Source of the DNA: Bordetella petrii
GTDB taxonomy: Bacteria; Pseudomonadota; Gammaproteobacteria; Burkholderiales; Burkholderiaceae_B
Length of the DNA stretch: 64,000 bases
NCBI RefSeq assembly: GCF_017356245.1
Contig: NZ_JAFMZZ010000004.1
Span: forward strand, 280,741-344,740
Reading direction: 5' to 3'
The translations under genes were made by a program, and so were the position numbers. A model generated the notes under the pieces. That model had not been told where the DNA came from and did no database searches. It saw nothing but the letters and a program-made list of their open reading frames with translations. How positions within the stretch are numbered: the first letter of the stretch is position 1; the number at the start of each line of letters is the position of its first letter. Positions 14,852 to 31,647 of this stretch are shown in pieces.

Positions 14852-14891
14852 CCCAACGGCGCCCGATGCCGTTCCAACCAAGGAGTTAGCC

Positions 14892-16796
14892 ATGTCCGAT
14901 CAGAAACCCGACCGAACCGGACTCAGCCGCCGGGGCTTCCTGGGCACCGCCGCATTGTCCGGTGCCGCGGGGCTCGTGGGCGGTGCGCACCTTACCGGTG
15001 CGCACGCCAAAGACAGCAAGGCAGGCCAGTCCGGCCACATCGCCCCGGGCGAGCTTGACGAATACTATGCCTTCAACTCCGGAGGCCAGTCGGGCGAAGT
15101 CCGCATCCTGGGCCTGCCGTCCATGCGCGAACTGATGCGCATCCCGGTGTTCAACCACTGCAGCGCCACCGGCTGGGGCGTTACCAACGAAAGCCGCAAA
15201 GTCCTGACCGAAGGCCTTACGCCTGAAACCCGCGCCTTCCTGAAAGACAAGGGCGGCGTGTACCTGAACGGCGACGCCCACCACCCGCACATGTCGTTCA
15301 CCGACAGCACGTACGACGGGCGCTACATCTTTATCAACGACAAGGCCAACAACCGCGTCGCGCGCATCCGCTGCGACGTCATGAAAACCGACAAGATCGT
15401 CGAAATCCCCAACGCCTCGGGCATACACGGCCTGCGCCCGCAGCGTTACCCGCGCACCGGCTATGTGTTCGCCAACGGCGAACACATAGTTCCCCTGCCC
15501 AACGACGGCATCGTTTCCGACAACCCCAAGGAAAACTTCTTCGCCGTCTACACGGCCATCGACGGCGACACCATGAAGATCGCCTGGCAGGTCATGGTCG
15601 ACGGCAACCTCGACAACGGCGATGCCGACTACCAGGGCAAGTATTCCTTCGCCACCTGCTACAACTCCGAAAAAGGCCTGACGGTCGAAGAGGCCTCGGC
15701 CAACGAGCAGGACTGGGTGGTGGTGTTCAACATCAAGCGCATCGAAGAAGCCATCAAATCCGGCGACTTCAAGACGATGGGCGGCGTGCCGGTGGTCGAC
15801 GGCCGCCACGGGTCGAAGTACACGCGCTACATTCCCGTGCCCAACTCGCCGCACGGCTGCAATGCCGCCCCCGACGGCATCCACGTGGTGCTCAACGGCA
15901 AGCTCTCGCCCACCGTCACCGTGCTCGACGTGCGCAAGCTCGACGACCTGTTCGCCGGCAAGATCAAAGAACGCGACTGCGTGGTGGCCGAGCCCCAGCT
16001 GGGCCTGGGCCCGCTGCACACGGCCTTCGACGGCCGCGGCAATGCCTACACCACGCTGTTCATCGACAGCCAGATGGTCAAGTGGAACATCGACAAGGCG
16101 CGCCGCGCCTACCAGGGTGAAAAAGTCGATCCCATCATCCAGAAGCTCGACGTGCACTATCAGCCCGGCCACAACCACAGCACCATGGGCGAAACCCGCG
16201 AGGCCGACGGCAAGTGGCTGGTGTCGCTGAACAAGTTCTCGAAAGACCGCTTCCTGAACGTGGGCCCGCTCAAGCCCGAAAACGACCAGCTGATCGACAT
16301 TTCCGGCGACGAAATGAAGCTGGTGCACGACGGCCCCAGCTTTGCCGAGCCGCACGACATGCTGCTGGTGCACCGCTCGAAAGTGCATCCCGCCAGCACC
16401 TGGAAGCGCGACGACCCCATGTGGGAAGACGCCCGCCAACTGGCCAAGAAAGACGGCGTGGTGCTCGAAGACGCCGCCAAGGTGGTGCGCGACGGCAACA
16501 AGGTGCGCGTGTACATGATCGCGGTCGCGCCCATGTTCAGCGTGAAGCAGTTCGAGGTCAACCAGGGCGACGAAGTGACCGTGGTGGTCACCAACATGGA
16601 AGTCATCGAAGACCTGACCCACGGCTTCACGCTCGAAGGCCACGGCATCGCCATGGAAATCGGCCCGCAAGCCACGTCGTCGGTCACCTTCACGGCCGAC
16701 CGTCCGGGCATCTACTGGTACTACTGCCAGTGGTTCTGCCATGCGCTGCACATGGAAATGTCCGGCCACATGATCGTGCGTCCCAAGAAGGCCTAG
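14892..16796 (+). CDS. nosZ: Nitrous-oxide reductase NosZ (clade I, Tat-exported)
   Basis: 634 residues. The twin-arginine signal SRRGFLG (12-18) marks export by Tat, as for clade I NosZ. The enzyme reduces N2O to N2 in the periplasm. CuZ histidines are visible in [33 protein letters not shown] and AEPHDML. CuA ligands are in the C-terminal cupredoxin domain, including [12 protein letters not shown]. The start at 14892 has AAGGAGTT upstream; the longer frame from 14820 overlaps nosR and is not used. Sequence and length are typical and the gene appears intact. Confidence 0.99.
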
Positions 16797-16802
16797 GCTC
16801 GC

Positions 16803-18098
16803 ATGCACGATGCGCCACCCGCCAAGCTGCCCGGCGCGGCCGTTCCTGCCGCCTTGCTGGCCGGGCTGCTATTGGCCGGCGGCGCGTCGGCGGCCGTCGT
16901 CGCGGTGCCGGCCGGGGCCAGCCTGCAGCAGGCGGTGGCCGCGGCCGCCGCCGGCGATGTGCTGCAACTGGCGCCCGGCGAATACCCGGGCAACCTGGTC
17001 ATCGACAAACCCCTTACCCTGCAGGGCCCGCCCGACCGTTCCGCCGTCATACGGGGCGAACGCCAGGGCCGCACCATCTGGGTGCGCGCCGCCCACGTCA
17101 CGCTGCGCCAGCTCAGCATCCGCCATTCCGGCCTCAGCCTGCCCGACATGGACGCGGGCGTGTTCCTGGACCGCAACGCGCACCACGCGGTGGTCGAACA
17201 CAACGACATCCTGGACAACCTGATGGGCGTGTACGTGTGGGGGCCCGACGCCGCCCTGGTGCGCGCCAACCGCATCGTGGGCAACACCGAACTGCGCGTG
17301 GCCGAACGCGGCAACGGCGTGTCGGTATGGAACAGCCCCGGCAGCCAGGTGCTGGACAACGACATCTCGGCCGGCCGCGACGGTATTTTCTCGAACACCA
17401 GCAAGCACAACCTGTTCCGCGGCAACCGCTTCCGCCAGCTGCGCTATGCCGTGCACTACATGTACACCAACGACAGCGAAGTCAGCGACAACATCTCTGA
17501 AGACAACGACATCGGCTATGCCATCATGTATTCGCACCGCCTGGTGGTGCGCAACAACGTGGCCCTGCGCAGCCGCGAGCAGGGCCTGATGTTCAACTAC
17601 GCCAACGATTCCATCATCGCCGGCAACGCGGTGCAGGGCGGCGCCAAGTGCGCGTTCCTGTACAACGCCAACAACAACCGCTTCGAATTCAATCGCTTCC
17701 AGGACTGCGGCATCGGCATCCATTTCACGGCCGGATCCGACGGCAACGCCATCACCGGCAACGCCTTCATCAACAACCAGAACCAGGTCAAGTACGTGGG
17801 TACCCGCGTCATCGAATGGTCGCGCGACGGCCGCGGCAACTACTGGAGCGACAACACCGCCTTCGACCTGGACGGCGACGGCATCGCCGACACCGCCTAC
17901 CGGCCCAACGGCATCGTCGACCAGATCCTGTGGCGCGCGCCCGCGGCCCGCATCCTGCTCAACAGCCCGGCGGTGTCTGTCGTGCGCTGGGCGCAGTCGC
18001 AATTCCCGGCGCTGCTGCCGGGCGGCGTCATCGACAGCGCGCCCCTGATGCACCCGCCCGGCCTGCCCGACGCCGCCGATACAAAGGCCCGCCCATGA
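16803..18098 (+). CDS. nosD: NosD, periplasmic copper-maturation protein
   Basis: 431 residues: a signal peptide (about 1-30) and a right-handed beta-helix of CASH/PbH1 repeats, seen as repeated patterns such as AVVEHNDILDNLMGVY, QVLDNDISAGRDGIF and SIIAGNAVQGG. NosD works with the NosFY ABC complex to build the CuZ site of NosZ. It begins 6 bases after the nosZ stop. Its last four bases overlap nosF (ATGA). Confidence 0.96.
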   Translation: MHDAPPAKLPGAAVPAALLAGLLLAGGASAAVVAVPAGASLQQAVAAAAAGDVLQLAPGEYPGNLVIDKPLTLQGPPDRSAVIRGERQGRTIWVRAAHVTLRQLSIRHSGLSLPDMDAGVFLDRNAHHAVVEHNDILDNLMGVYVWGPDAALVRANRIVGNTELRVAERGNGVSVWNSPGSQVLDNDISAGRDGIFSNTSKHNLFRGNRFRQLRYAVHYMYTNDSEVSDNISEDNDIGYAIMYSHRLVVRNNVALRSREQGLMFNYANDSIIAGNAVQGGAKCAFLYNANNNRFEFNRFQDCGIGIHFTAGSDGNAITGNAFINNQNQVKYVGTRVIEWSRDGRGNYWSDNTAFDLDGDGIADTAYRPNGIVDQILWRAPAARILLNSPAVSVVRWAQSQFPALLPGGVIDSAPLMHPPGLPDAADTKARP

Positions 18099-19000
18099 CC
18101 GCCCCTCAAGTCGCCCTGTCGGGCGCCAGCAAACACTACGGACAGCACCAGGCGCTGGGCCGCGTCGACCTTGAACTGCGCGCCGGCGAATGCGTGGCCC
18201 TGGCCGGCCACAACGGAGCCGGCAAAAGCACTCTGATCAAGCTGGTGCTGGGCCTGATTCGCCCCACCCATGGGCGCGTGCAGCTGCTGGGGCACGACGC
18301 CGACAGCCGCCAGGCCGCGCGCCTGCGCCACAGCATCGGCTACCTGCCAGAAACCGTGGCCCTGCACCCCGCCATGACCGGCGCCGAAACCCTGGATTTC
18401 TATGCCCGTCTGAAGCGCCAGCCCCTGACGCGCAATGCCGCCCTGCTTGAGCGAGTCGGCATCGCCGACGCGGCGCGGCGGCGCGTGGGCGGATATTCCA
18501 AGGGCATGCGGCAGCGCCTGGCGCTGGCGCAGGCCTTGCTGGGCCGGCCGCGCATCCTGCTGCTCGATGAACCCACCACCGGCCTGGACCCGGCCTCGCG
18601 CCTGATGTTCTACGACCTGGTGCGCGAACTGCGCGACGCCGGCGCCACCGTGCTGGTCAGCACGCACGCCTTGGCCGAGATCGCCAACCACGTCGACCGC
18701 GTCATCGTCATGACGCACGGCCAGAAGATCGCCGACGGCACGCTGGCGCAGCTGCGCCAGGCCATCGGCGTGCCTATGCGCATCAAGCTGACGCTGGCCC
18801 ACCCCATGCCGGCCGGTACCCTGCCCGCGCCATGGCAGCAGGTCGGCCCGGCGCGCTTCGAACGAGCCTGCCCCGAATCCGGCAAGGTCGAAGCCATCCG
18901 CGACATCGGCGCCATCGGCCTGCCCATCGCCGATATCGACATCCACACCCCCAGCCTGGACGAGATCTACGCCCACCTGCTCGAACGGAAAACCCCATGA
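18095..19000 (+). CDS. nosF: NosF, ABC transporter ATP-binding protein
   Basis: 301 residues. Walker A GHNGAGKS (38-45), signature YSKGMRQRLALAQ and Walker B ILLLDEPTTGLDP are intact. With NosY it forms the membrane ABC machine that powers NosD in assembling the copper-sulfur cluster of NosZ. The ATG overlaps the nosD stop and its own stop overlaps nosY, so nosD-F-Y are translationally coupled. Confidence 0.97.
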   Translation: MTAPQVALSGASKHYGQHQALGRVDLELRAGECVALAGHNGAGKSTLIKLVLGLIRPTHGRVQLLGHDADSRQAARLRHSIGYLPETVALHPAMTGAETLDFYARLKRQPLTRNAALLERVGIADAARRRVGGYSKGMRQRLALAQALLGRPRILLLDEPTTGLDPASRLMFYDLVRELRDAGATVLVSTHALAEIANHVDRVIVMTHGQKIADGTLAQLRQAIGVPMRIKLTLAHPMPAGTLPAPWQQVGPARFERACPESGKVEAIRDIGAIGLPIADIDIHTPSLDEIYAHLLERKTP

Positions 19001-19827
19001 ACGCCGTCCTGACCATCACCGGCAAAGAAATCCGCGACGGCCTGCGCAACCGCTGGGTGCTGGCCACGGCCCTGCTGCTGGCCGCACTGGCGTTGTCGCT
19101 GGGCCTGCTGGGCAGTTCACCCACCGGCGCCGTCAAAGTCGACCCGCTGACGGTCACCGTGGTCAGCCTGTCCAGCCTGTCGATCTTCCTGGTGCCGCTG
19201 ATTGCCATGCTGCTGGCCTACGATGCCATCGTCGGCGAAATCGACCGCGGCACGCTGGCCCTGCTGCTTAGCTACCCGGTATCGCGCTGGCAGGTCATTG
19301 TCGGCAAGTTCGTCGGCCACCTGGCCATCCTGGCGCTGGCCACCACCGCAGGCTACGGCTTCGCCGGCCTGGCCCTGCAATGGCTGCACGGCGGCGCCAG
19401 CGCAGCCGCCTGGCGGCCCTTCGCCCTGCTGATCGCGGCCAGCGTGCTGCTGGGCGCCAGCTTCCTGGCCATGGGCTACCTGATCAGCACGCTGGTGCGC
19501 GAGCGCGCCACCGCGGCCGGCATCGCCATCGCCGTGTGGCTGTTCTTCGTCGTCATCTACGACATGGCGCTGCTGGGCCTGCTGGCCGCCGACCAGGGCC
19601 GCAGCGTCACCCCCGCCGTGCTCGACATACTGCTGCTGCTCAACCCGTCCGACATCTACCGGCTGATGAACCTGACCGGCTTCGAGAACATTTCCATGTA
19701 TGCCGGCATGGCCGGTGTCGGCAGCCAGGCCAGCCTGGGGCTGGCCACCCTGGCGCTGGCGCAGCTGCTGTGGATCGCCATTCCCTTCCTGCTGGCGGCG
19801 GCCTGCTTCCAAAGGAAATCGCTATGA
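18997..19827 (+). CDS. nosY: NosY, ABC transporter permease for NosZ maturation
   Basis: 276 residues with about six membrane helices. It follows the ABC-2 permease pattern: an N-terminal KEIRDGLRNRWVL amphipathic stretch and EIDRGTLALLLSYPVSRWQ before helix 3. It pairs with NosF. Both ends overlap neighbours by four bases (ATGA with nosF and with nosL), so the stoichiometry is probably set by translational coupling. Confidence 0.97.
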   Translation: MNAVLTITGKEIRDGLRNRWVLATALLLAALALSLGLLGSSPTGAVKVDPLTVTVVSLSSLSIFLVPLIAMLLAYDAIVGEIDRGTLALLLSYPVSRWQVIVGKFVGHLAILALATTAGYGFAGLALQWLHGGASAAAWRPFALLIAASVLLGASFLAMGYLISTLVRERATAAGIAIAVWLFFVVIYDMALLGLLAADQGRSVTPAVLDILLLLNPSDIYRLMNLTGFENISMYAGMAGVGSQASLGLATLALAQLLWIAIPFLLAAACFQRKSL

Positions 19828-20369
19828 ACCGGCTACCCGCCCTTTACCGCCGCGCCGCGCGCCTGGCCGGCGCGATGCTGCTGGCCGGCCTGGCGGCCTG
19901 CGGCGCCGACGAACGCCAGACCGCCGCGCCCCCGCCGCCGCAGGCCGTCGCCAGCGAAGCCGTCGGGCACTACTGCGGCATGGCCCTGAACGAACACACC
20001 GGCCCCAAGGGCCAGATTTTCCTGCAGGGGCAGGACGCCCCCGTGTGGTTCTCGGCCATCAAGCAGGTGTTCGCCTACACCATACTGCCCGAAGAACCCA
20101 AGTCCATCCGCGCCATCTACGTCAACGACATGGCGGGCGCCGAGCGCGGGCAAGCACCCGACCCGGGCGCCTGGGTCGACGCCCGCCAGGCCTATTACGT
20201 CATCGAAAGCGGCTACATCGGCGGCATGGGCGCCGAAGACGCCATGCCGTTCGGCCAGCGCGCCCAGGCCGATGCCTTTGCCCAGGCGCATGGCGGGCGC
20301 GTCGCCGCCTTCGACGAAGTACCCGAAAGCTACATCTTCTCGCACGACACGCCCGCGCCCACCCCTTGA
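19824..20369 (+). CDS. nosL: NosL, copper chaperone lipoprotein
   Basis: 181 residues. A lipobox LAGLAAC places it on the membrane facing the periplasm. NosL binds Cu(I) and delivers it to apo-NosZ or NosD; the conserved Cys-Gly-Met in HYCGMALNEH and later Met residues (NDMAG, GGMGAEDAM) are the likely ligands. The start has AAGGAAATC upstream and overlaps nosY. Confidence 0.95.
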   Translation: MNRLPALYRRAARLAGAMLLAGLAACGADERQTAAPPPPQAVASEAVGHYCGMALNEHTGPKGQIFLQGQDAPVWFSAIKQVFAYTILPEEPKSIRAIYVNDMAGAERGQAPDPGAWVDARQAYYVIESGYIGGMGAEDAMPFGQRAQADAFAQAHGGRVAAFDEVPESYIFSHDTPAPTP

Positions 20370-20385
20370 TCGTCCGGACACCATC

Positions 20386-21435
20386 ATGCCCACTTTCGCG
20401 CGCACCCGCCGCCGCTTCCTTGGCATTACCGCCGCCGCATCCGCCCTGGCCCTGGCGCCGGGCGCGCTGCGCCTGGCCCACGCCACCGCCGCCGCCCAGC
20501 CGGCACGCGGCATCGAGCCCCTGCACTGGCGCGGCGTGGCCCTGGGCGCCGACGCCGAACTGCGCCTGTACCACCCTGACCCTGCCGCCGCGCAAAACCT
20601 GCTGCGGCAGGCGCTGGCCGAAATCCAGCGCCTGGAAAGCCTGTTCAGCCTGTACCGTGAAGACAGCGCCCTGGCCGCCCTGAACCGCCAGGGCAGGCTG
20701 GACGAGCCGCCCGCCGACCTGCTGCGCCTGCTGAACGAAAGCACCCATTACAGCCGCCTGACCCGCGGCGCCTTCGACCCCAGCGTGCAACCCCTGTGGA
20801 ACCTGTACGCCGACCACTTCTTGCAGCCCGGCGCCGACCCTGCCGGCCCCGCCGCCGCCGCGCTGCGGGCAGCGCTGGCCCGCGTCGACTACCGCGCCAT
20901 CCAGGCCGAACCCAACCGCATCCAGCTGCAGCGCCCGGGCATGGCCCTGACGCTGAACGGCATCGCCCAGGGCTACATCACCGACCGCATCACCGAGCTG
21001 CTGCGCGCCGGCGGCCTGGACCGCGCCCTGGTCGACCTGGGCGAAATCCGCGGCCTGGACGATCACCCCGCCGCCGGCGCCGCGCCCTGGCGCGTGGGCC
21101 TGGCCCGCCCCCAGGCACCCGAGCAGGTCTACACCATGGTAGACGTCCACAACCAAGCCCTGGCCACCTCCGGCGGCTACGGCACGCCCCTGGACCCGGC
21201 CGGCCGCCATACCCATCTGTTCGACCCCCACACCGGCCGCGCCCAGCCCCGCTACCGCAGCGTATCGGTACTGGCCGGCACCGCCACCATGGCCGACGCC
21301 CTGTCCACCGCTTTCTCGAACATGGCGCTGGCCGACACGGCGGCCGTGGTGCGGAAACTGGGGCTAAGGGCATGGTTCGTACTGGCTGACGGCAGCGTCA
21401 CGGAACAGGGCGCCCCGGCGTCTGCGCGAAGCTGA
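20386..21435 (+). CDS. nosX: NosX, ApbE-type FMN transferase for NosR
   Basis: 349 residues with a Tat-type signal (RTRRRFLGITAAAS, about 6-19). The ApbE fold follows, with LFSLYREDSALAALN, LNGIAQGYITDRI, ATSGGYGTP and TATMADALSTAFSN. NosX transfers FMN to the periplasmic domain of NosR and is the last nos gene. It starts 16 bases after nosL. The ORF is open to 20272, but that part overlaps nosL in another frame, so the ATG at 20386 before the Tat signal is used. Confidence 0.94.
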   Translation: MPTFARTRRRFLGITAAASALALAPGALRLAHATAAAQPARGIEPLHWRGVALGADAELRLYHPDPAAAQNLLRQALAEIQRLESLFSLYREDSALAALNRQGRLDEPPADLLRLLNESTHYSRLTRGAFDPSVQPLWNLYADHFLQPGADPAGPAAAALRAALARVDYRAIQAEPNRIQLQRPGMALTLNGIAQGYITDRITELLRAGGLDRALVDLGEIRGLDDHPAAGAAPWRVGLARPQAPEQVYTMVDVHNQALATSGGYGTPLDPAGRHTHLFDPHTGRAQPRYRSVSVLAGTATMADALSTAFSNMALADTAAVVRKLGLRAWFVLADGSVTEQGAPASARS

Positions 21436-21444
21436 AAGTCCGCT

Positions 21445-21450
21445 TATAAT
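21445..21450 (+). promoter_or_regulatory. Probable -10 box of the tRNA-Leu gene
   Basis: A perfect TATAAT lies 47 bases before the mature tRNA. No good -35 is seen at the usual distance. The terminal bases of nosX are just upstream. Confidence 0.5.
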
Positions 21451-21497
21451 GGCTAGCTTTCCGCCAGCCAGCCCATCTCGGGTTGCGCGCCTCCCGT

Positions 21498-21582
21498 GCC
21501 CGGGTGGTGAAATTGGTAGACGCAGGGGACTCAAAATCCCCCGCCGCAAGGCGTGCCGGTTCGATTCCGGCCCCGGGCACCA
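21498..21582 (+). tRNA. tRNA-Leu (anticodon CAA)
   Basis: 85 bases including the encoded CCA. The acceptor stem GCCCGGG pairs with CCCGGGC. The anticodon loop CTCAAAA has the anticodon CAA at 21532-21534, reading UUG. A long variable arm (around CGCCGCAAGGCG) marks a class II tRNA, and the T arm CCGGTTCGATTCCGG is perfect. The lower-GC insertion begins directly downstream, which makes this a likely integration target. Confidence 0.97.
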
Positions 21583-22037
21583 TCTCTAAAGATCGCCGGT
21601 ATTTACAAGCATTGAATCCGGTTCTTTACCTCGCCCTGATATAAGGGAATTCCCGAATCGATAGACTGGATGCCGCTTTTGCACAAAGGCGAAGCACTCG
21701 CGTCCTGTCCACGTCTGCCTAAATTTAGCTCCCGTCATAACGGCTTCGCTGCCCGCCAAAAAAAAAGCGTTATTCGATAGACAGGCGGGTCGCCTTCGTA
21801 CAGTGCATGCAGACAAACCACGCGCTAAAGAGCGGTCCTGGCTGCACCGCAGACGAGGCGGCCGGCCGGCCCCGCGAACGGCGAATCCGTCGGCGACCGA
21901 AGCTCGAGACGGCGCAGGAACCTTGCCTTAACGAAGTCACGCCGATCGGGCAAGAATCGCCAGGGGCACACTCCAAAAGTGCAACTGGGCGCCAAGCGGT
22001 CTATCATGCTTTCCAACATCGTTCGCAAAGACAGGAA
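21583..22037 (+). other. Gene-free stretch after tRNA-Leu
   Basis: About 455 bases with no convincing gene. It holds an A9 tract at 21758-21766 and a near-perfect 12-base direct repeat TCGATAGAC(T/A)GG at 21658-21669 and 21774-21785. I see no copy of the tRNA 3' end and no CTGT-N8-ACAG SOS box. The open frames on both strands have no family resemblance. It probably carries the promoter of the MazG/helicase operon and the border of an inserted segment. Confidence 0.5.
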
Positions 22038-22358
22038 ATGGAAAAAGTCATTCAGCGGCTGCGCCAGTTTCGCGACGAGCGAAACTGGCAGCAGTTCCAC
22101 AACCCTAAAGACTTGGCCTTGGCGCTCAGCATCGAAGCCAGCGAGCTGCTGGAGGTTTTCCTATGGAAGCGCCCTGAAGCCGCCGATCGCGAAAAGGTGA
22201 AAGAAGAGCTTGCCGATGTCTTGGCTTACGCGCTGCTACTGTCCGATGCGTACGACTTCGACATAAAGAAAATCGTCCTGGAGAAAATCGAAAGGAACGA
22301 AAAAAAGTACCCCGTGCACAAGGCAAAGGGAACCGCTAAAAAATACAACGAGCTATGA
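22038..22358 (+). CDS. MazG-like nucleotide pyrophosphohydrolase
   Basis: 106 residues of the all-alpha NTP pyrophosphohydrolase superfamily (MazG / dCTPase / RS21-C6 type). Metal-binding residues are visible as ExxE in SIEASELLE and ExxD in EELADVL. Such enzymes cleave nucleoside triphosphates to the monophosphate and PPi. The first domain residues (EKVIQRLRQFRDERNWQQFHNP) define the start at 22038; a longer frame from 21807 is non-homologous. AGGAA lies very close to the ATG, so initiation may be weak. The stop overlaps the next ATG (ATGA), coupling it to the nuclease-helicase gene. Base composition is lower in GC than the nos genes. Confidence 0.87.
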   Translation: MEKVIQRLRQFRDERNWQQFHNPKDLALALSIEASELLEVFLWKRPEAADREKVKEELADVLAYALLLSDAYDFDIKKIVLEKIERNEKKYPVHKAKGTAKKYNEL

Positions 22359-24544
22359 CCCAGCCGCACCTCGTCGAAGTGAACCGTTACCGGTTCTCGG
22401 CAGAAACGCTTACGGAAATCGAGACCAACGCGTACGCAGCGAACAACTGGCCGCTTGTTTATATTCTCAGCGATGGAAGGACACGCTGTGCCTATGTCGG
22501 CGAGACTACAGACACGCTCGCTCGCCTGGGTACGCATCTCAAACACCCTCAGAAGCGATCGTTGACGACGGTACACCTCGTCAGCAGTGAACGCTTCAAC
22601 AAGTCGGCGACTCTCGATATAGAGTCTTCCCTCATAAAGTACATGGCAGCCGACGGCCGTTTCAGCATGTTGAACGGCAATCTCGGTCTGAGCGACCACA
22701 ACTACTATCAGAGGGATGAGCTCTATTCCAAGATCTTTCGGGAAACCTGGAACAGACTGCTCCAGTACGGAATCGCCCAAAGATCAATCGAGGCCATCGA
22801 CAATTCCGATGTTTTCAAATACTCGCCGTACAAATCGCTGTCGGTCGATCAACAACAGGGCCTGATCGAGATAATGCGGTCGCTTGTCGACCCCCGGCTT
22901 AAACATATCGTAGTCCAAGGTGGCGCCGGAACCGGAAAGTCGGTGTTGGCGATATTCCTATTCAAGCTCATCCATTCCGAACTTGAGGAATTGGATCTGC
23001 ACGAGTTTTCCGAGGAAGAGCAGGAAGTGCGGGAACTGCTCCGGCAAATCAAGCAATTGCTCCCATGCCCGCGCATGGCCTTGGTAGTACCTATGAGCTC
23101 GTTCAGGAGCACGCTGAAGAAGGCGTTCCGGAACGTTGCAGGCCTGCATCCCGATATGGTCATCAGCCCTTCCGAGCTGACGAAGCAACGCTACGACATC
23201 GTCCTGGTGGATGAGTCACACCGCCTGCGCAAGCGGGTCAACCTAGGGGCCTATTACGGAGCCTTCGACGCGGCCTGCGCGGCTCTTGGATTGGACAAGA
23301 ATACGTCCAGCGAGGTGAACTGGGTCACGCACCAGTCAGATAAAGCTGTCTTCTTCTACGACCCGGATCAGAGCATTAAACCATCCGATGCCGACGCGGC
23401 TGACTTCGAAGACATGAAGTCTTCGTCGGACAGCACGGTCATAACGCTGGCTTCCCAGTTCCGGGTCCGCGCCGGGCGGAACTACGTGCGGTTTGTCGAT
23501 GATCTACTGCATATGCGGCTTTCGGCTTACGAGAAGTTTAGTTCCAGCAAGTACGAGTTTCTGGTTTTTGACGAGATCTCCGACATGGTGAAGGAGATAG
23601 AGCAAAGAAATTGCAGCTACGGTTTGGCGCGACTAGTGGCCGGTTACTCCTGGCCCTGGGTTTCCAGGAAGTCCCCCCACCTGCATGACATCGAAATCGA
23701 TGAAGTTCGATTGCGGTGGAACAGCACGACCGTGGATTGGATCAATGCGAAAGGCGCCGTGAGCGAGGTGGGCTGCATCCATACCACCCAAGGCTATGAC
23801 CTGAACTACACCGGCATAATCTTCGGCCACGAAATCCGCTATGACGAAAAGCTCGACCAGATCGTCATTGACCGAAACAATTACCATGACCGAAACGGAA
23901 AGCAGACCATTGAAGATCCCAATGAGCTCAAGCAGTACATACTGAATATCTACCGGACCATCATGCTGCGAGGCATACGAGGTACGTTCCTCTACGCATG
24001 CGACGCCAGCCTGAGGCGCTATCTGAAGCGGCATGTGGAGAGCTACAAGTCCAACATCATCGCGTTCCCGGACGCTGGCAAGCCTTTGGAACCTTACGTC
24101 AATGCAGTCCCGCTCTATGACCTGCGAGCGGCAGCGGGCAATTTCAGCGCGCTCCAACACGTCGAACATGAAGAATGGGTAGCGGTCCCCGATGGAATGC
24201 CCGTGGGAAAGAATATTTTTGCCTGCCATGTAGTTGGCGAATCCATGAACAAGGTAATCCCTGATGGCGCCATCTGCCTGTTTCGCTTGAACCCGGGTGG
24301 CAGTCGTAATGGAAAAATCGTGCTGGTGGAATGCTCCGATACGCAGGACGGCGACGCTGGTTCGCGATACACGGTCAAGGAATATCAGAGCTTCAAAGCG
24401 CGTACCGAAGACGGCGCTGAGAATCAACGGATCCTATTGAAACCGCGATCTACCAATCCAGCGCTGGGTCCAATTAAGCTCAGCAAGGAAGACGACGAAC
24501 ATCGCTATCGGGTGGTAGGCGAGTTTTTGGGTGTGATCGGTTAG
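22355..24544 (+). CDS. GIY-YIG nuclease / DUF2075 helicase / LexA-like (S24) fusion protein
   Basis: A 729-residue three-part protein. (1) GIY-YIG nuclease, about 33-110: VYIL at 35-38, YVG at 47-49, Arg57, His61, catalytic Glu90 and Asn107. (2) DUF2075 / Schlafen group 3-type SF1 helicase, about 160-560: Walker A GGAGTGKS (189-196), Walker B VLVDESH (283-289), motif III FFYDPDQS (333-340), SQFR (367-370), HTTQGYDLNYTGIIFG (476-491) and LRGIRG (538-543). (3) LexA/UmuD-like S24 domain, about 585-729: AAAG at 592-595, Ser630 in GESM and Lys675 in YTVKEY, placed like the cleavage site and Ser-Lys dyad of LexA. All catalytic residues look intact. It overlaps the MazG-like gene by ATGA. A DNA-targeting, possibly anti-phage or stress-triggered role is inferred; I do not recognise it as a named system. 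Confidence 0.88.
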   Translation: MTQPHLVEVNRYRFSAETLTEIETNAYAANNWPLVYILSDGRTRCAYVGETTDTLARLGTHLKHPQKRSLTTVHLVSSERFNKSATLDIESSLIKYMAADGRFSMLNGNLGLSDHNYYQRDELYSKIFRETWNRLLQYGIAQRSIEAIDNSDVFKYSPYKSLSVDQQQGLIEIMRSLVDPRLKHIVVQGGAGTGKSVLAIFLFKLIHSELEELDLHEFSEEEQEVRELLRQIKQLLPCPRMALVVPMSSFRSTLKKAFRNVAGLHPDMVISPSELTKQRYDIVLVDESHRLRKRVNLGAYYGAFDAACAALGLDKNTSSEVNWVTHQSDKAVFFYDPDQSIKPSDADAADFEDMKSSSDSTVITLASQFRVRAGRNYVRFVDDLLHMRLSAYEKFSSSKYEFLVFDEISDMVKEIEQRNCSYGLARLVAGYSWPWVSRKSPHLHDIEIDEVRLRWNSTTVDWINAKGAVSEVGCIHTTQGYDLNYTGIIFGHEIRYDEKLDQIVIDRNNYHDRNGKQTIEDPNELKQYILNIYRTIMLRGIRGTFLYACDASLRRYLKRHVESYKSNIIAFPDAGKPLEPYVNAVPLYDLRAAAGNFSALQHVEHEEWVAVPDGMPVGKNIFACHVVGESMNKVIPDGAICLFRLNPGGSRNGKIVLVECSDTQDGDAGSRYTVKEYQSFKARTEDGAENQRILLKPRSTNPALGPIKLSKEDDEHRYRVVGEFLGVIG

Positions 24545-24622
24545 CCAGGATTCGTACGCAGATGTCGCCGATTGATGGGGCAAATTCCTTGCCCGAAGTC
24601 ATCGGCATGACGACTCACTGGC

Positions 24623-24644
24623 CTCGCCCTGGCGAGTTTTTCTT
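24623..24644 (+). terminator. Intrinsic terminator after the nuclease-helicase gene
   Basis: CTCGCC (24623-24628) and GGCGAG (24631-24636) form a tight hairpin followed by TTTTTCTT. It ends the two-gene operon. Confidence 0.7.
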
Positions 24645-25250
24645 AGTCTGATTGGAGAATGGTTCCGCACTTCGCTTCGGGCTGCTGCTTTTGGTCCCAC
24701 CCTTGATGCCCTTTCAGCCAAACGACGTCAGGAGTGGCGCGTCTCAAGCGGATGGCGGGCCAAGGGGTAGGTGCGGCCCACGGCCCGGAGGGCGAGGACA
24801 CGGCCCCTGGACGTGGTAGGAGTTCCGGACCAGAGGCCAGCAACCCCTGCCCCGAAGCTCCCGCCGGCGAGAATGGAGAGTCCAGATAGGCAAAACCTCG
24901 TTGGAAACTAACTACGAGACGCGTAACCATCTGCTGACTACGCCAGCCACCGACCTAGAAACAACAACCAGCGTTGAAAATGTCGATTCGTCGAGCAAAT
25001 CGGCAATTTCGTCGAATAACACGCTCATCGCTCAACCCCTCATGCTAGGCTCAGCGACATTCGTGCCGTCACGAAGCAGCCGATCGAACTCTTTTGCTGG
25101 AAGCAAAACACGACCGGCGCCTATGGTCGGAGCGGACGTCGGTCGGATCGCTCAGTGTGTCGGTCGATCGCATTACACCGGTACCGGTGACAAACAGAAC
25201 GACATGTCTTGAGCTGACTTCTTAATGAAGACAGAAGAGGAGATCGTAAA
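24645..25250. other. Stretch without a recognised gene
   Basis: About 600 bases. Two open frames exist (24643-24930 minus, 95 codons; 24901-25212 plus, 103 codons), but neither shows a fold, a good start site or a family resemblance, and they overlap each other. The first half is GC-rich and the second half AT-richer, suggesting a junction near 24900. The last 120 bases hold operator-like repeats before the next gene. Confidence 0.4.
25138..25189. promoter_or_regulatory. Direct repeats and palindrome upstream of the CcdA-like gene
   Basis: GTCGGTCGGATCGC (25138-25151) and GTCGGTCGATCGC (25159-25171) are near-identical direct repeats 21 bases apart, two helical turns. The 14-base perfect palindrome CACCGGTACCGGTG follows at 25176-25189. 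Together they look like a regulator binding region about 60 bases before the start at 25251. Confidence 0.45.
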
Positions 25251-26210
25251 GTGTTGTCATACAACCAAGCCGTTGAACAGGACGGGCGCGCCACACTGTT
25301 TTCCCCACATCGCAATCGTCTGGTCCTGGCGCTCTGTGCGCTTGCCGTCGGCGTTCTGGTCGCCGGTTTCTGGAATTTTCATTTGGCGGACGGCTTCGGC
25401 CGGGAGATCGTCGCGGGCCAGACCATCGGAGACACGGAAAGCCTGGCCGGGTCCTATGGTGAACGGGGCGCGGCTTTCGGTTTTGTCTTCGCAATTATTG
25501 CTGGCCTGGCCGCGACTTTCACGGCGTGCAATTGCGTTGTATTTGCCATGCTTCCGGGCCTGGCTTGCGCGACGGAGAAGGTCGGGTCGCCCCGGCGGCT
25601 CGCCATCCAGGCAATCGGCATCTTCTCGCTTTTTGTCCTGCTGGTTTGCTTCATTTACGGAATGTATGTGGGCTCGCTGGGACCGGAGCGCGTGGACGCC
25701 TTCAACACCCGGGAAACGCGCCTGTTTCAGGCGCAGGTGACATTCACGCTGCTCGGCATTGTTCTGCTTCTGTGGGGTGCGATTTCGTTTGGATTTCTGG
25801 ACGGGATGCTACGCCGCCTGCCGCCCAGGTTGCTGGGCTTGGCCGCCTCGCCGCTGGCCAAGGCAGGCTTCATGGGATTCCTGGTGGGGCTGTTCGCCAT
25901 TGGGCGGCCATTTCCGGTGTTCAGGAATTTTCTGACCTATGCGGCCGCCTCGGAAAGCCCGCTGTATGGAGGCGCGGTGATGGCCTTGCAGGGGGTGGGG
26001 CAGATTCTGGTGATGGTTGTGCTGTTCCTGGTGCTGATCGTGCCGTTCTCCAAGCGGCTGACAGACTGGTCGGCGCGGCACCCTGGCAGGCTGGAACAAT
26101 TCAGCTCGGCCATGCTGGTTGCCGGCGGGGCGTACTTTATCTTCTATTGGGGCATTGCCTTCGCCTTTAATGTCGGCAATTGGGGCTTCAAGCTGCACTG
26201 GTACAGCTAG
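25251..26210 (+). CDS. Polytopic membrane protein, CcdA/DsbD-like
   Basis: 319 residues with about seven hydrophobic segments. The second segment carries TACNC (Cys93, Cys95), placed like the TPC motif of CcdA/DsbD/MauF thiol-transporting membrane proteins; Cys106 lies nearby. The periplasmic loop between helices 1 and 2 is about 30 residues. The start is GTG at 25251 with AGAGGAGA 9-16 bases upstream. It stands alone between the insertion and the FAD/Fe-S gene, and no thioredoxin or cytochrome gene is next to it. Reductant transfer across the membrane is possible but unproven; a plain exporter is the alternative. Confidence 0.6.
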   Translation: MLSYNQAVEQDGRATLFSPHRNRLVLALCALAVGVLVAGFWNFHLADGFGREIVAGQTIGDTESLAGSYGERGAAFGFVFAIIAGLAATFTACNCVVFAMLPGLACATEKVGSPRRLAIQAIGIFSLFVLLVCFIYGMYVGSLGPERVDAFNTRETRLFQAQVTFTLLGIVLLLWGAISFGFLDGMLRRLPPRLLGLAASPLAKAGFMGFLVGLFAIGRPFPVFRNFLTYAAASESPLYGGAVMALQGVGQILVMVVLFLVLIVPFSKRLTDWSARHPGRLEQFSSAMLVAGGAYFIFYWGIAFAFNVGNWGFKLHWYS

Positions 26211-26239
26211 TCTGGAAACGCCTCAGGGGTAGCCGCCCC

Positions 26240-29200
26240 CTACCCTTGGCTTAACGCCCTTTGCAGCACACAGGCCACGTGCTCTGCCCGCCGGCTGCCT
26301 TCTGCCCGGGTGCCGTCGGCGATCTGGTGCCGGCAGCTGGTGCCGTCGGCCACCAACAGGGTGTCGGCGCCCGCCTGGCGCACGGCGGGCAGCAGGGACA
26401 GCTCGGCCATTTTCATCGAGGTGTCGTAGTGCGCGGCTTCGTAGCCGAAGCTGCCGGCCATGCCGCAGCAGCTGGATTCGATCAGGTCGACTTTCAGGCC
26501 GGGGATCAGCGCCAGGATCTGCTGCACGGGCTTGACGGCGTCGAAGGCTTTCTGGTGGCAGTGGCCGTGCAGCAGGGCGCGCTTTTCCGGCAGCGGATGC
26601 AGTTTCAGTTCGAGCCGGCCGGCCTTGAGTTCGTTTGCCAGGAATTCTTCGAAAAGAAAGGCGTGGCGGGACAGCCGTTCGGCGTCTTCGCCCAGGCCCA
26701 TGACCAGGAATTCGTCGCGCAGCGTCAGCAGGCACGAAGGCTCAAGGCCGACGATGGGCACGCCGCGCGCGATGAAGGGCCGCAGCGCCTGGACCACGCG
26801 GCGGGCTTCGGCTTTGGCCTGGTCGACCAGGCCGGCCGACAGGTAGGTGCGGCCGCAGCACAGGGGGCGCCCGGGCTGGGTGTCGTTGGCGGCGGGGCGC
26901 GCGACGTGGACGCGGTAGCCGGCCGCCTGCAGCACCTGCAGGGCGGCGCGGGCGTTGTCGGCTTCGAAATAGTTGTTGAAGGTGTCGGCGAACAGCACGA
27001 TGTTGGCCGTGTCGGCATCGGCCGTCGAAGCCTGGCGGGTGAAGACGTCGCCGCGCCATTTCGGCAGGGTGCGCCGCGATGAAAAGCCCAGCAGGCGTTC
27101 GGACAGCCAGGCGGCGCCCGGCAGAGTGTCGCGCAGGTTGAACAGGAACGGCAGGCGGCCCGCCCAGGGCGCCCAGCGCGGCAGCGTGGCGATGATTTTG
27201 TCTTTCAGCGCCAGCCCGCGTTGTTGCCGCCACTGGTTCAGGAACTCGATTTTCATGCGCGCCATGTCGATGCCGGTGGGGCAGTCGCGCTTGCAGCCTT
27301 TACAGCTGACGCACAGGTCCATGGTGGCGCGCATGTCGTCGGAAGCCAGGGCGTGCGGCCCCAGCTGGCCGGACAAGGCCAGGCGCAGGGTGTTGGCGCG
27401 GCCGCGCGTCAGGTGCTGTTCGTCGCGGGTGACGCGATAGCTGGGGCACATGGTGCCGGCGTCGAATTTGCGGCAGTGCCCGTTGTTGTTGCACATTTCC
27501 ACGGCCTTGGCCAGGCCCTGGGCGGGGTCGCCGCCGGTGCCGGGCGCGCTGACGGACTCGGTGGCCGGATCGTTGTGTACGTTCCAGGCGGACCAGTCCA
27601 GCGCGGGCGTGAGGGGGATGGTGCGGTAGCCGGGCTTGAAGCGGAACAGGGACCGGTCGTCCATCTTGCTGCTGTGCACGATCTTGCCCGGGTTCATCAG
27701 CCGGTCGGGATCGAAGGCGTCTTTGATTTCTTCGAAGGCGCGGCTCAGCCTGGGCCCGAACTGCCAGGCCACCCATTCGCTGCGCACCAGCCCGTCGCCA
27801 TGCTCGCCGGAAAAGGCGCCCTTGTAGCGCCGCACCAGCGCGCCGGCCTCTTCGGCGATGGCGCGCATTTTTTCCGCGCCGTCGCGGCGCATGTCGAGTA
27901 TGGGCCTGACATGCAGCGTGCCCACCGAAGCATGGGCGTACCAGGTGCCCTTGGTGCCGTGGCGGGCGAATACGTCGGTCAACTGGCTGGTGTATTCGGC
28001 CAGGTGCTCCAGCGGCACGGCGCAGTCTTCGATGAATGACACCGGCTTGCCGTCGCCGCGCATGCTCATCATGATGTTCAGGCCGGATTTGCGGACTTCC
28101 CACAGGGCTTTCTGGGCCGCCGGGTCCGGCATTTCGACCACGCAGCCGGGCAGGCCCAGGTCGCCCATCAGTTCGACCAGCCTGGCCAGGCTGGACAGCT
28201 GTTCGGCCTGGGATTCGCCGGCGAACTCGACCAGCAGGATGGCTTCGGGCGTGCCGATGAGGGCGCTGTCGATGATGGGGCGGAAGGCCGGGTTGCTGCG
28301 GGCCAGGTCGATCATGGTGCGGTCGACCAGTTCCACCGCGCAGGGGCCCAGCCCTACGATGTGGCGGGCCGTGTCCATGGCCTGGTAGAAGGTGGGGAAG
28401 TTGACCACGCCCAGCGCCTTGGCGGCCGGCAGGGGCGACAGCTTGAGCGTGATGCTGCGGGTGTAGGCCAGCGTGCCTTCGCTGCCCACCAGCAGGTGCG
28501 CCAGGTTGACGCGGCCGTCGGCCGTGTAGGGGCGCGGGCTCTGCGGATGGAAGATGTCCAGGTTGTAGCCGCCCACGCGGCGCATCACGGCCGGCACCAT
28601 GCGCTGGATTTCGTCGCGCTCGCGCGCGGCGATTTCGTCGAGTTTGTTGATGATGGCGCGTATGCGGGGCGGCGCATTGCCCATGCGGCCGGCTTCGGCG
28701 AAAGTGGCGGCGGTGCCGTCGAGCAGCAGGGCATCGATGCTGAGCACGTTGTGCACCATGTTGCCGTAGGCGATGGATCGCGAGCCGCAGGAATTGTTGC
28801 CCGCCATGCCGCCCAGCGTGCACTGCGCCGCGGTGCTGACATCCACTGGGAACCACACGCCATGCGGCTTGAGCCAGGCATTGAGGTGGTCGAGCACGAT
28901 GCCGGGCTCTACCGTGACCGTCATGGCGTCCAGGTTGAAGTCAAGAACGCGGTTCAGGTATTTGCTGTTGTCGATGACCAGCGCGGCGCCCACGGTCTGG
29001 CCGCACTGCGAGGTGCCCCCGCCGCGCGCCAGCACGGGCACGGACAGTTCGCGGCACAGGCTGAGCGCGGCCGCGACGTCGTCGCCCGACTTGGGCACCA
29101 GCACGCCGACCGGCTCGATCTGATAGATGGATGCGTCGGTTGAATAACGCCCCCGCGCGCCCCGGTCGAACATAACCTCGCCTTGCGTGCCGCTGCGCAG

Positions 29201-29269
29201 GCGGGCGGCCAGTTCGAGATGCAGCGGATTCAGTTCGGCGTGCTGCTGTGGGGGTAGGGGCGCGTTCAT
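26240..29269 (-). CDS. FAD-linked and Fe-S 2-hydroxyacid dehydrogenase (YdiJ-like)
   Basis: 1009 residues. An N-terminal FAD-binding PCMH domain (about 45-280) has VPVLARGGGTSQCGQTVG and GGMAGNNSCGSRS. It is followed by an FAD-linked oxidase C-terminal domain with HASVGTLHVRP and GEHGDG, a 4Fe-4S motif CVSCKGCKRDCP (about 650), and a CCG-type domain (CCGRTYLSAG, SCCGMAGSFGYE). YdiJ-like enzymes oxidise D-2-hydroxyacids such as D-2-hydroxyglutarate or D-lactate at the membrane face. It lies 21 bases after the GntR gene on the same strand, so it is probably the enzyme arm of that regulon. The substrate is not determined. Confidence 0.92.
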   Translation of the reverse strand: MNAPLPPQQHAELNPLHLELAARLRSGTQGEVMFDRGARGRYSTDASIYQIEPVGVLVPKSGDDVAAALSLCRELSVPVLARGGGTSQCGQTVGAALVIDNSKYLNRVLDFNLDAMTVTVEPGIVLDHLNAWLKPHGVWFPVDVSTAAQCTLGGMAGNNSCGSRSIAYGNMVHNVLSIDALLLDGTAATFAEAGRMGNAPPRIRAIINKLDEIAARERDEIQRMVPAVMRRVGGYNLDIFHPQSPRPYTADGRVNLAHLLVGSEGTLAYTRSITLKLSPLPAAKALGVVNFPTFYQAMDTARHIVGLGPCAVELVDRTMIDLARSNPAFRPIIDSALIGTPEAILLVEFAGESQAEQLSSLARLVELMGDLGLPGCVVEMPDPAAQKALWEVRKSGLNIMMSMRGDGKPVSFIEDCAVPLEHLAEYTSQLTDVFARHGTKGTWYAHASVGTLHVRPILDMRRDGAEKMRAIAEEAGALVRRYKGAFSGEHGDGLVRSEWVAWQFGPRLSRAFEEIKDAFDPDRLMNPGKIVHSSKMDDRSLFRFKPGYRTIPLTPALDWSAWNVHNDPATESVSAPGTGGDPAQGLAKAVEMCNNNGHCRKFDAGTMCPSYRVTRDEQHLTRGRANTLRLALSGQLGPHALASDDMRATMDLCVSCKGCKRDCPTGIDMARMKIEFLNQWRQQRGLALKDKIIATLPRWAPWAGRLPFLFNLRDTLPGAAWLSERLLGFSSRRTLPKWRGDVFTRQASTADADTANIVLFADTFNNYFEADNARAALQVLQAAGYRVHVARPAANDTQPGRPLCCGRTYLSAGLVDQAKAEARRVVQALRPFIARGVPIVGLEPSCLLTLRDEFLVMGLGEDAERLSRHAFLFEEFLANELKAGRLELKLHPLPEKRALLHGHCHQKAFDAVKPVQQILALIPGLKVDLIESSCCGMAGSFGYEAAHYDTSMKMAELSLLPAVRQAGADTLLVADGTSCRHQIADGTRAEGSRRAEHVACVLQRALSQG

Positions 29270-29290
29270 GGGGCTCCTGGCCGGATGGGC

Positions 29291-30079
29291 TTAGGGTTGT
29301 CTGGGTTCGCCTGCGGCATCGGAAGCATCGGCGGTGCCGCAAGCCCCTTCGGCGTCGGCGGCGGCGAGCTTCAGGTTTTCCAGCACGGCCTCGCCCTTGC
29401 GCCGCAGATGCTGCCGCAGTATCTGCGCCAGCCGGGGGCCGTCGCGCGAGGCCAGCGCGTCGGCCATTTCCAGGTGTTCGCGCATGGCCTTGTCCCATTT
29501 TTCGGGGTTGAGGTTGGAACGGAAGCGCAGGTTCTGCAGGCGCAGGTTGATGTTCGTGTAGACCTGCGACAGCAGCTCGTTGTGGCCCGCGGCGTTGATG
29601 CGGTCGTGGATGGCGCGGTTGACGTGGTAGTAGGAAGACAGGTTGCGCCTGGCGTGGCAGGCCTGCATTTCGAATGTCAGGGCCTTGATCTCGGCGATTT
29701 CCTGGTCGGTGATGTGCTGGCAGGCAAGTTCGCCGGACAGGGCCTCGAGCACGCCCATGACTTCGAAGCTTTCGCGGATGTCTTTTTCGGACAGGGCCAC
29801 CACGTGCGCGCCGCGGTTGGGCTGCATGCGCACCAGCCCATCGGCGGACAGCAGCCGGAAGGCTTCGCGCAGGGGCGTGCGCGACACCTGCAGCCGGTCG
29901 CACAGCGCGCGTTCGTTCAGGCGGGTGCCGGCGGCCAGCTCGCCCTCGATGATCATTTCGCGCAGGCGGTCGGCGATGGTGGCGGGCAGCGTGCGCCTGT
30001 CGACGGCCTCGGACGAGGGACCGGGTTCCGTCGCCGGCGGGGCGGATGGGTTGGATAGGCTTACGGGATCAATTTTCAT
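29291..30079 (-). CDS. GntR family regulator, FCD type
   Basis: About 262 residues. The winged helix (TIADRLREMIIEGELAAGTRLNERALCDRLQVSRTPLREAFRLL, in part) is followed by an all-helical FCD ligand domain with metal-type His residues (VNRAIHDRIN, and REHLEMADAL). FCD regulators usually sense carboxylates. The start is uncertain: ATG at 30079 abuts a TTTGTATACAAA palindrome, while ATG at 30130 would put that palindrome inside the gene; neither has a clear ribosome site. It is divergent from the aminotransferase-transporter operon and upstream of the FAD/Fe-S gene. Confidence 0.88.
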   Translation of the reverse strand: MKIDPVSLSNPSAPPATEPGPSSEAVDRRTLPATIADRLREMIIEGELAAGTRLNERALCDRLQVSRTPLREAFRLLSADGLVRMQPNRGAHVVALSEKDIRESFEVMGVLEALSGELACQHITDQEIAEIKALTFEMQACHARRNLSSYYHVNRAIHDRINAAGHNELLSQVYTNINLRLQNLRFRSNLNPEKWDKAMREHLEMADALASRDGPRLAQILRQHLRRKGEAVLENLKLAAADAEGACGTADASDAAGEPRQP

Positions 30080-30090
30080 TTGTATACAAA
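30079..30090. promoter_or_regulatory. GntR operator 1
   Basis: TTTGTATACAAA, a perfect 12-base palindrome, fits the TNGTNNNACNA pattern of FadR/FCD regulators. It touches the probable start of the gntR gene, consistent with autorepression. Confidence 0.65.
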
Positions 30091-30248
30091 AAAAGCGATA
30101 GCGCGTGAATTCAGCGGTGCCGCGCGCCATGCCTGGCCAATCGAAGAAACCCGCCCAGTTTAACCTGTACCTTTCTCTCCCAATTGCTGTGGCGCCGCAT
30201 AAATTCCCCTTGCAGGAGGGCGCCTTTGCTGCTTATTCTTCATCAAGA

Positions 30249-30268
30249 TTGGTATTTTGTATACCAAA
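30249..30268. promoter_or_regulatory. GntR operator 2
   Basis: TTGGTAT (30249-30255) and ATACCAA (30261-30267) are inverted repeats, and TTTGTATAC at 30256-30264 repeats the core of operator 1. The site lies 17 bases before the aminotransferase ATG and just ahead of its AGGAG. Shared cores suggest one regulator controls both arms. Confidence 0.62.
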
Positions 30269-30284
30269 TTATCAGGAGCCCCTC

Positions 30285-31490: not shown

Positions 31491-31647
31491 CGGCACGCCG
31501 CGCGCGCCGCAGGCGATGGATCACGCAGCATCACAGTAGGCAAAGTCCGCAGCAGGGGGAACAAGAACAGGACTCGCTGGACAGGAAGGCTCAAGCAAGG
31601 CGTACCGATACCGGACGTCCCCGTGGCACCACCCGGAGGAGACACAC

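Follow-up and report, generated by a model that had tools for sequence, protein, structure and literature searches.

A MazG and GIY-YIG operon in Bordetella petrii

The window analysed here is a stretch of 64,000 nucleotides from Bordetella petrii (RefSeq assembly GCF_017356245.1, contig NZ_JAFMZZ010000004.1, positions 280,741 to 344,740). On its + strand, to which both genes with their domains, the flanking promoter-like and terminator-like elements and the tRNA gene belong, it carries two overlapping genes that may constitute a mobile immune module. The first encodes a MazG-like nucleoside triphosphate (NTP) pyrophosphohydrolase of 106 amino acids (22038..22358), as delimited by Pfam and the alignment of relatives. 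The second (22355..24544) encodes a fusion protein of 729 amino acids composed of a GIY-YIG nuclease, a Schlafen (SLFN)-type superfamily 1 (SF1) helicase and an S24 domain, as defined by its open reading frame (ORF), Pfam and conservation. Stop and start codons overlap in the letters ATGA (22355..22358). The same overlap, with the TGA stop of the MazG gene inside it, recurs in 25/25 aligned loci, including those of Marinobacter, Alcanivorax and Saccharospirillum, and is thus more than a chance event; these loci were picked for having both genes. At the distant locus L013, from Saccharimonas, the two genes do not overlap, MazG lying 3 bases upstream of the fusion. A preliminary description made from the sequence alone had proposed this operon and its four domains. 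Both ORFs were confirmed and the Pfam profile searches agree with the domain calls, the GIY-YIG domain remaining below cut-off in the query.

The MazG-like protein matches PF12643 (E 3.7e-19). Its start at 22038 follows from the alignment of relatives; a longer ATG at 21807 is also present. ExxE...ExxD is the metal-binding motif of MazG and all-alpha NTP pyrophosphatases, and the corresponding E33xxE36 and E57xxD60 are retained in 25/25 aligned loci. Among chains of solved structure, the closest matches are a 'pyrophosphatase' (4qgp, E 1.2e-21) and RS21-C6/dCTP pyrophosphatase 1 (E 2.4e-19, over residues 5-106).

GIY-YIG nucleases are marked by the GIY and YIG tyrosines, an arginine, a glutamate and an asparagine. 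The N-terminal domain of the fusion (residues 34-110, 22454..22684) carries Tyr36, Tyr47, Arg57, His61, Glu90 and Asn107 and has the GIY-YIG fold, near UvrC, T4 EndoII and I-TevI. PF01541 matches 26/26 N-terminal pieces (best E 1.8e-7), the window's own piece lying below the cut-off with 20.7 versus 22.6 bits, and Tyr36, Tyr47, Arg57, Glu90 and Asn107 are invariant in 26 aligned N-termini. Next comes the helicase domain, of SLFN group 3 (residues 184-550, 22904..24004, with Lys195 and Asp286-Glu287), which matches PF09848 with E 5.5e-63. Its best Foldseek match is human SLFN11 (E 1.4e-8), with RecD2 and Dna2 close behind, and in VIA its scores with FBH1 and UvrD exceed that with SLFN11. A Schlafen core nuclease domain was not found among ten Pfam families up to E 1; GIY-YIG stands at the N-terminus instead. 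NCBIfam gave no match above cut-off. The catalytic residues that the preliminary description had called intact (Tyr36, Tyr47, Arg57, Glu90, Lys195, Asp286 and Glu287) are invariant in 121/121 aligned relatives, a count made up of 120 listed relatives, the window included, and L013.

The fusion ends in an S24 autoprotease domain of the LexA/CI type (residues 583-729, 24101..24541; PF00717, E 1.5e-8), whose fold matches LexA/CI bound to RecA. Self-cleavage is predicted between Ala594 and Gly595 (24134..24139), with Ala592-Ala593 directly before the site. Ser630 (24242..24244) is the predicted nucleophile and Lys675 (24377..24379) the predicted general base. Ser630 and Ala594 are each kept in 117/121 relatives, Lys675 and Gly595 each in 118/121. 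Ala-Gly is found at the same position in other SLFN-S24 and MZB proteins and is missing from L013.

Upstream of the operon a conserved block (TGCAAC ... TATCAT, 21980..22007), recognised by eye, forms a putative promoter; a scan for the sigma-70 consensus gave 0 sites and missed this block. Downstream, an intrinsic terminator-like element (24623..24646), already noted in the preliminary description, appears real: a GC stem (24623-24636) with T-run has, by eye, a counterpart in the corresponding position of L047-L050. Taken by itself, the consensus scan gives no significant excess (6 elements versus 4.6 expected). Further upstream lies a tRNA-Leu(caa) gene (21498..21582, ARAGORN), an integration hot spot adjoining the module, and the flank before it (14820-21435) resembles by eye a nitrous oxide reductase (nos) cluster that ends at this tRNA gene.

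Pairing, spread and lateral movement

Some match to the fusion was found in 57/268 genomes of the family survey, in 23 of them at 66% identity or more (G000 included). In 20 of these 23, a MazG 79-100% identical to that of the window precedes the fusion, its end falling exactly on the first base of the latter. Four genomes (G027, G101, G110 and G211) have MazG without fusion. A class-wide draw of 369 genomes (E<=1e-50) added one more protein of the GIY-YIG type (G511, 59%) and two partial matches. More remote pairs are carried by a plasmid of Lactiplantibacillus (GIY-YIG and SLFN helicase, S24 lacking) and by one of the archaeon Halalkalicoccus; plasmid matches in Paenibacillus and Hymenobacter have no MazG beside the helicase in the annotation. 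Close plasmid-borne relatives above 80% coverage were not found among 38 records, all below 60% identity. A phage origin was considered and dismissed, with only four phage records, of 23-36% identity and each short of 80% coverage, and one distant locus among 107 candidate stretches of IMG/VR.

The helicase also occurs behind other fronts. L073 combines a NERD-like front (E 8.4e-4, below cut-off) with an S24 domain, L082 has a NERD-like front above cut-off and an SLFN helicase without S24, and the SLFN proteins of L078 and L079 begin with a front matching no assigned domain. In 11/12 SLFN loci of these other types a MazG gene is the direct neighbour or lies no more than about 1 kb away, L085 being the exception. 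Directly upstream of the Lactiplantibacillus plasmid pair, a further gene for an NTP pyrophosphohydrolase shares an overlap with a PLD-helicase-DUF3427 gene (L136:324-3621). The pairing of a pyrophosphohydrolase with a helicase gene thus occurs twice at this locus.

Nucleotide comparisons indicate that the module moves laterally. A cassette of about 21970-24645 on the + strand is conserved at 86-89% identity in G196, G005, G009, G026 and G093 and at 82% in G085. Outside the cassette, these six genomes match the window's flanks only in short stretches of about 175-280 bases, close to the tRNA or immediately downstream. For G196 the cassette (89.3%) exceeds the mutS region (75.8% over 2295 aligned bases); in the other five genomes mutS (81-84%) and cassette (82-88%) are similar, so transfer is clear for G196 only. 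A FAD-linked oxidase gene had been tried as yardstick of core divergence and, being accessory, was replaced by mutS. Genome G094 aligns on both sides (20000-21608 and 24927-32000, 87-88%) and lacks 21609..24926 (no strand), having 1957 bp with ORFs resembling by eye an IS3-type transposase in place of the window's 3318 bp that contain the pair.

A tRNA gene lies on the same strand less than 800 bp upstream in 11/31 loci of the GIY-YIG type (6 Leu-caa; 5 Pro-cgg, all of these in Marinobacter and some near-repeats of one another) and in 0/12 loci of other SLFN types. In G097, G098, G100 and G101 of the window's genus, the 3' end of tRNA-Leu(caa) is repeated 19-26 kb beyond the tRNA on its downstream side, a pattern that islands would produce; in G100 the NERD-type pair sits between the tRNA and this copy. 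Convincing attachment repeats around the cassette were not found in window positions 21400-27500. Split tRNA-Leu(caa) copies, with 5' and 3' parts about 230 bases apart, occur at the same hot spot in L100, L102, L104, L109 and L110; no group I intron matched Rfam at gathering score in L100, L102 or L104. Matches to traJ-II RNA and PtaRNA1 downstream of tRNA-Leu (L100:14217-14320, L104:9710-9813, L104:12805-12878) point to conjugative or plasmid-like elements at the hot spot.

Defence context and the proposed role of the S24 tail

The preliminary description could not match the pair to a named defence system, and PADLOC likewise found none over the full length. Among the neighbours, 144 proteins from 28 loci matched 71 PADLOC models at 1e-15, versus 6 models (mad3, three RtcR, DinG and mad2) for 140 control proteins taken at 20 arbitrary sites across 20 genomes. 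The 71-model count is inflated, 21 of the 25 models listed being PDC-S05 variants from the same three proteins. At least 8/28 loci have a PADLOC-named defence neighbour; this is a lower bound because 20/144 proteins were scanned singly and 25/71 models were among those listed. Named neighbours are DRT UG6 with its nitrilase (L052), MzaE (L064), a CBASS-effector-like HNH protein (L063), an HNH protein (L010), SoFic (L053, L058, L059 and L072) and PDC-S05 (L058). A Marinobacter gene taken for the PDC-S05 helicase proved to be a glycyl-tRNA synthetase, PDC-S05 belonging to L058. L007 (model matches to mad3, AriA and mad8) was taken as unspecific and kept out of the defence count. Five of 149 proteins (3 MazG genes and 2 large proteins) were omitted from the neighbour pool, L009 and L015 were left out as near-repeats of L008, and five loci are repeats (L003=L047, L004=L054, L005=L065, L011=L053, L014=L051). 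Since some homologues adjoin defence genes, a role in anti-phage defence is likely.

The S24 tail is shared widely. At least six further architectures of DNA-cutting or helicase proteins terminate in it, and the S24-tailed kinds comprise the GIY-YIG/SLFN fusion, NERD-like/SLFN proteins, type I HsdR, type ISP restriction enzymes, DUF3427, DEAD-MZB and HNH proteins. Type I restriction R subunits ending in a LexA-type S24 module are encoded at L159:218-3784 and L160:3929-7468; in L159, HsdS and OLD-like ATPase genes adjoin the R subunit. A DEAD/Helicase_C/MZB protein of 1984 amino acids with S24 tail is encoded at L084:3314-9268, with matches of similar length in G053 and G174, and an HNH_4 protein of 558 amino acids with S24 tail at L158:5280-6956, where an ORF resembling by eye an IS30-type transposase adjoins the gene. 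For comparison of cleavage sites, 30 loci were viewed and labelled by eye out of 45 S24 matches in 21 relatives. Twenty LexA-like proteins have RVAAG at the site, and of five UmuD-like proteins four lack Ala-Ala and one has it.

The reading that we favour, with a probability of roughly one half, is a mobile two-gene immune module in which the S24 tail acts as a damage-triggered self-destruct of the nuclease-helicase. MazG would hydrolyse a nucleoside triphosphate, perhaps dCTP or 5-modified dCTP. The SLFN11-like SF1 motor would engage abnormal or foreign DNA, and the N-terminal GIY-YIG domain would cut it. Filaments of RecA on single-stranded DNA probably trigger LexA/CI-type self-cleavage of the S24 domain. 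The cut at Ala594-Gly595 would leave Ala-Ala-Ala at the C-terminus of the nuclease-helicase, an Ala-Ala end as in LexA, which most likely marks the enzyme for ClpXP. Upon damage to its own DNA the cell would thereby disarm the enzyme, a built-in restriction alleviation. The preliminary description had proposed that the pair could sense foreign or damaged nucleic acid, deplete nucleotides and cut DNA. As an accessory unit linked to mobile DNA this stands, given its patchy spread, lateral transfer, tRNA hot spot and some defence neighbours; the S24 domain, rather than being part of a sensor, is more likely a regulatory self-cleavage module common to many restriction enzymes and serving as off-switch.

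Several lines of evidence favour an off-switch, at about even odds against everything else. In LexA and LexA-like proteins, ClpXP C-degrons immediately adjoin the cleavage site, as described in the available part of PMC5742171. Treatment with UV, 2-aminopurine or nalidixic acid suppresses type I restriction (PMC3874165, in part), and ClpXP attacks EcoKI HsdR (PMC4231737, in part). Finally, in four of five broken relatives (P0060, P0063, L065 of G085 and L071 of G176) the frame seems broken in the linker or S24 domain while the nuclease-helicase ORF is open; the fifth, G184, is broken near the front. By extension, we tentatively suggest a portable C-terminal LexA-type self-destruct module on at least seven DNA-cutting or helicase kinds, in which a RecA-driven self-cut may expose an Ala-Ala degron as a general restriction alleviation in cis.

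Several observations weigh against this reading. Three other S24 proteins of relatives (L191-L193) have Gly-Ala-Ala before the site, so that, together with the one UmuD-like protein, the Ala-Ala letters are not unique to LexA. Motif sharing among S24 homologues is also partly expected from descent. Relatives without S24 exist in Lactiplantibacillus, Paenibacillus and Halalkalicoccus; with the frame breaks in linker or S24 they imply that the tail is dispensable. RecA dependence is not certain because a LexA-like protein departing from the RecA rule is reported in the available part of PMC7101444. The LexA box is CTGT-N8-ACAG, and a scan for it with up to one mismatch gave 11 sites versus 14 expected, none near the operon. 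PF01541 in the full-length window protein reaches only E 0.0025, below the Pfam cut-off. Open fusions without adjacent MazG occur in G055, G057 and G059. As for the neighbourhood, which had been suggested as a check for defence islands, defence genes do occur, but the island signal is moderate because the model count is inflated and in 3/8 loci the only such neighbour is a Fic (SoFic) gene, which is a weak indicator of defence. Many family loci have flanking genes that look ordinary by eye, as do the window's own neighbours, which PADLOC covered within the pool.

The reverse switch is a rather unlikely alternative. Here the tail would inhibit the nuclease-helicase, and RecA filaments arising from phage replication or damage would set free an active effector, possibly a suicidal one, working alongside nucleotide depletion by MazG. 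UmuD is a precedent of this type, the tail stands at the extreme C-terminus, and MazG persists in 7/24 genomes with the fusion absent (the four named above) or broken (G085, G176 and G184), as if the fusion were costly. However, the fusions of P0060, P0063, G085 and G176, broken before or inside S24, would then be constitutively active; HsdR and type ISP enzymes, which share the tail, are not known to need proteolytic activation; and Ala-Ala before the site is, in the few sequences compared, more LexA-like than UmuD-like. The same persistence of MazG, together with overlapping genes of which MazG is the first, would suit a toxin-antitoxin-like pair in which MazG restrains the nuclease or sanitises for it. 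Open fusions lacking an adjacent MazG and the intact catalytic residues of MazG make this very improbable.

Accessory DNA repair or fork processing instead of immunity, with the fusion as a bacterial SLFN11 counterpart at stressed forks and MazG cleaning the nucleotide pool, would agree with the Foldseek and VIA matches to SLFN11, RecD2, Dna2, FBH1 and UvrD and with dCTP pyrophosphatase 1 among the nearest solved relatives of MazG. It is nevertheless unlikely in view of the patchy spread, the lateral movement, the distant pairs on plasmids, the tRNA hot spot, the one helicase with exchangeable fronts and some defence neighbours. Least probable is a homing-type element whose GIY-YIG protein targets the adjoining tRNA gene. 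The fold near UvrC, T4 EndoII and I-TevI and the upstream tRNA-Leu or tRNA-Pro in 11/31 loci speak for it, but in 20/31 loci the 800 bp upstream contain no tRNA, tRNA-Leu(caa) seems to serve islands of the genus in general as a hot spot, and an attachment repeat around the cassette was not found.

Significance and comparison with known systems

Should the proposed function of the S24 tail hold, the SOS response would be tied to immune nucleases directly, with no transcriptional step, which would explain how some restriction systems spare damaged host DNA. With a visible cleavage site and dyad, two point mutants would suffice to address the degron question. The pair also brings a swappable nuclease-helicase into the set of defence candidates to which MazG belongs; DefensePredictor lists MazG as a predicted, unvalidated defence domain (PMC13092281, in part). 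The literature searched, which lay outside subscription papers and most preprints, held no description of the pair or of an S24-tailed restriction enzyme, and no phage or DNA-damage phenotype for the pair.

Damage-induced restriction alleviation was described decades ago (a 1984 reference is listed in the available part of PMC3874165). The module resembles the ClpXP-mediated alleviation of EcoKI in the proposed removal of an immune motor-nuclease after DNA damage (PMC3874165, PMC4231737, both in part). EcoKI HsdR, however, is attacked during translocation; its degron was not found, and an S24 tail is not mentioned in the available part of PMC4231737. LexA, UmuD and lambda CI share the S24 fold, the Ala-Gly site and the Ser-Lys dyad; in the window the tail is fused to a nuclease-helicase, and a DNA-binding repressor domain was not found. 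The MazG-like protein matches RS21-C6 (dCTP pyrophosphatase 1) in sequence and differs in being the operon partner of a nuclease. Among the closest known systems are the GIY-YIG nucleases of PD-T4-3 and PDC-S14. Part of the helicase region matches Nhi and AbiO (PADLOC E 1.3e-10 and 1.3e-9), PF09848 being listed among Abi families in the available part of PMC10121019; the best stretches cover positions 261-366 of 470 and 254-366 of 468, short of most of each model, and the system differs from both in nuclease, S24 tail and MazG. With human Schlafen 11 and SLFN group 3 the fusion shares the SF1 helicase domain (PF09848, Foldseek) and a nuclease N-terminal to the motor, from which it is set apart by GIY-YIG instead of the Schlafen core, by its S24 tail and by its MazG partner.
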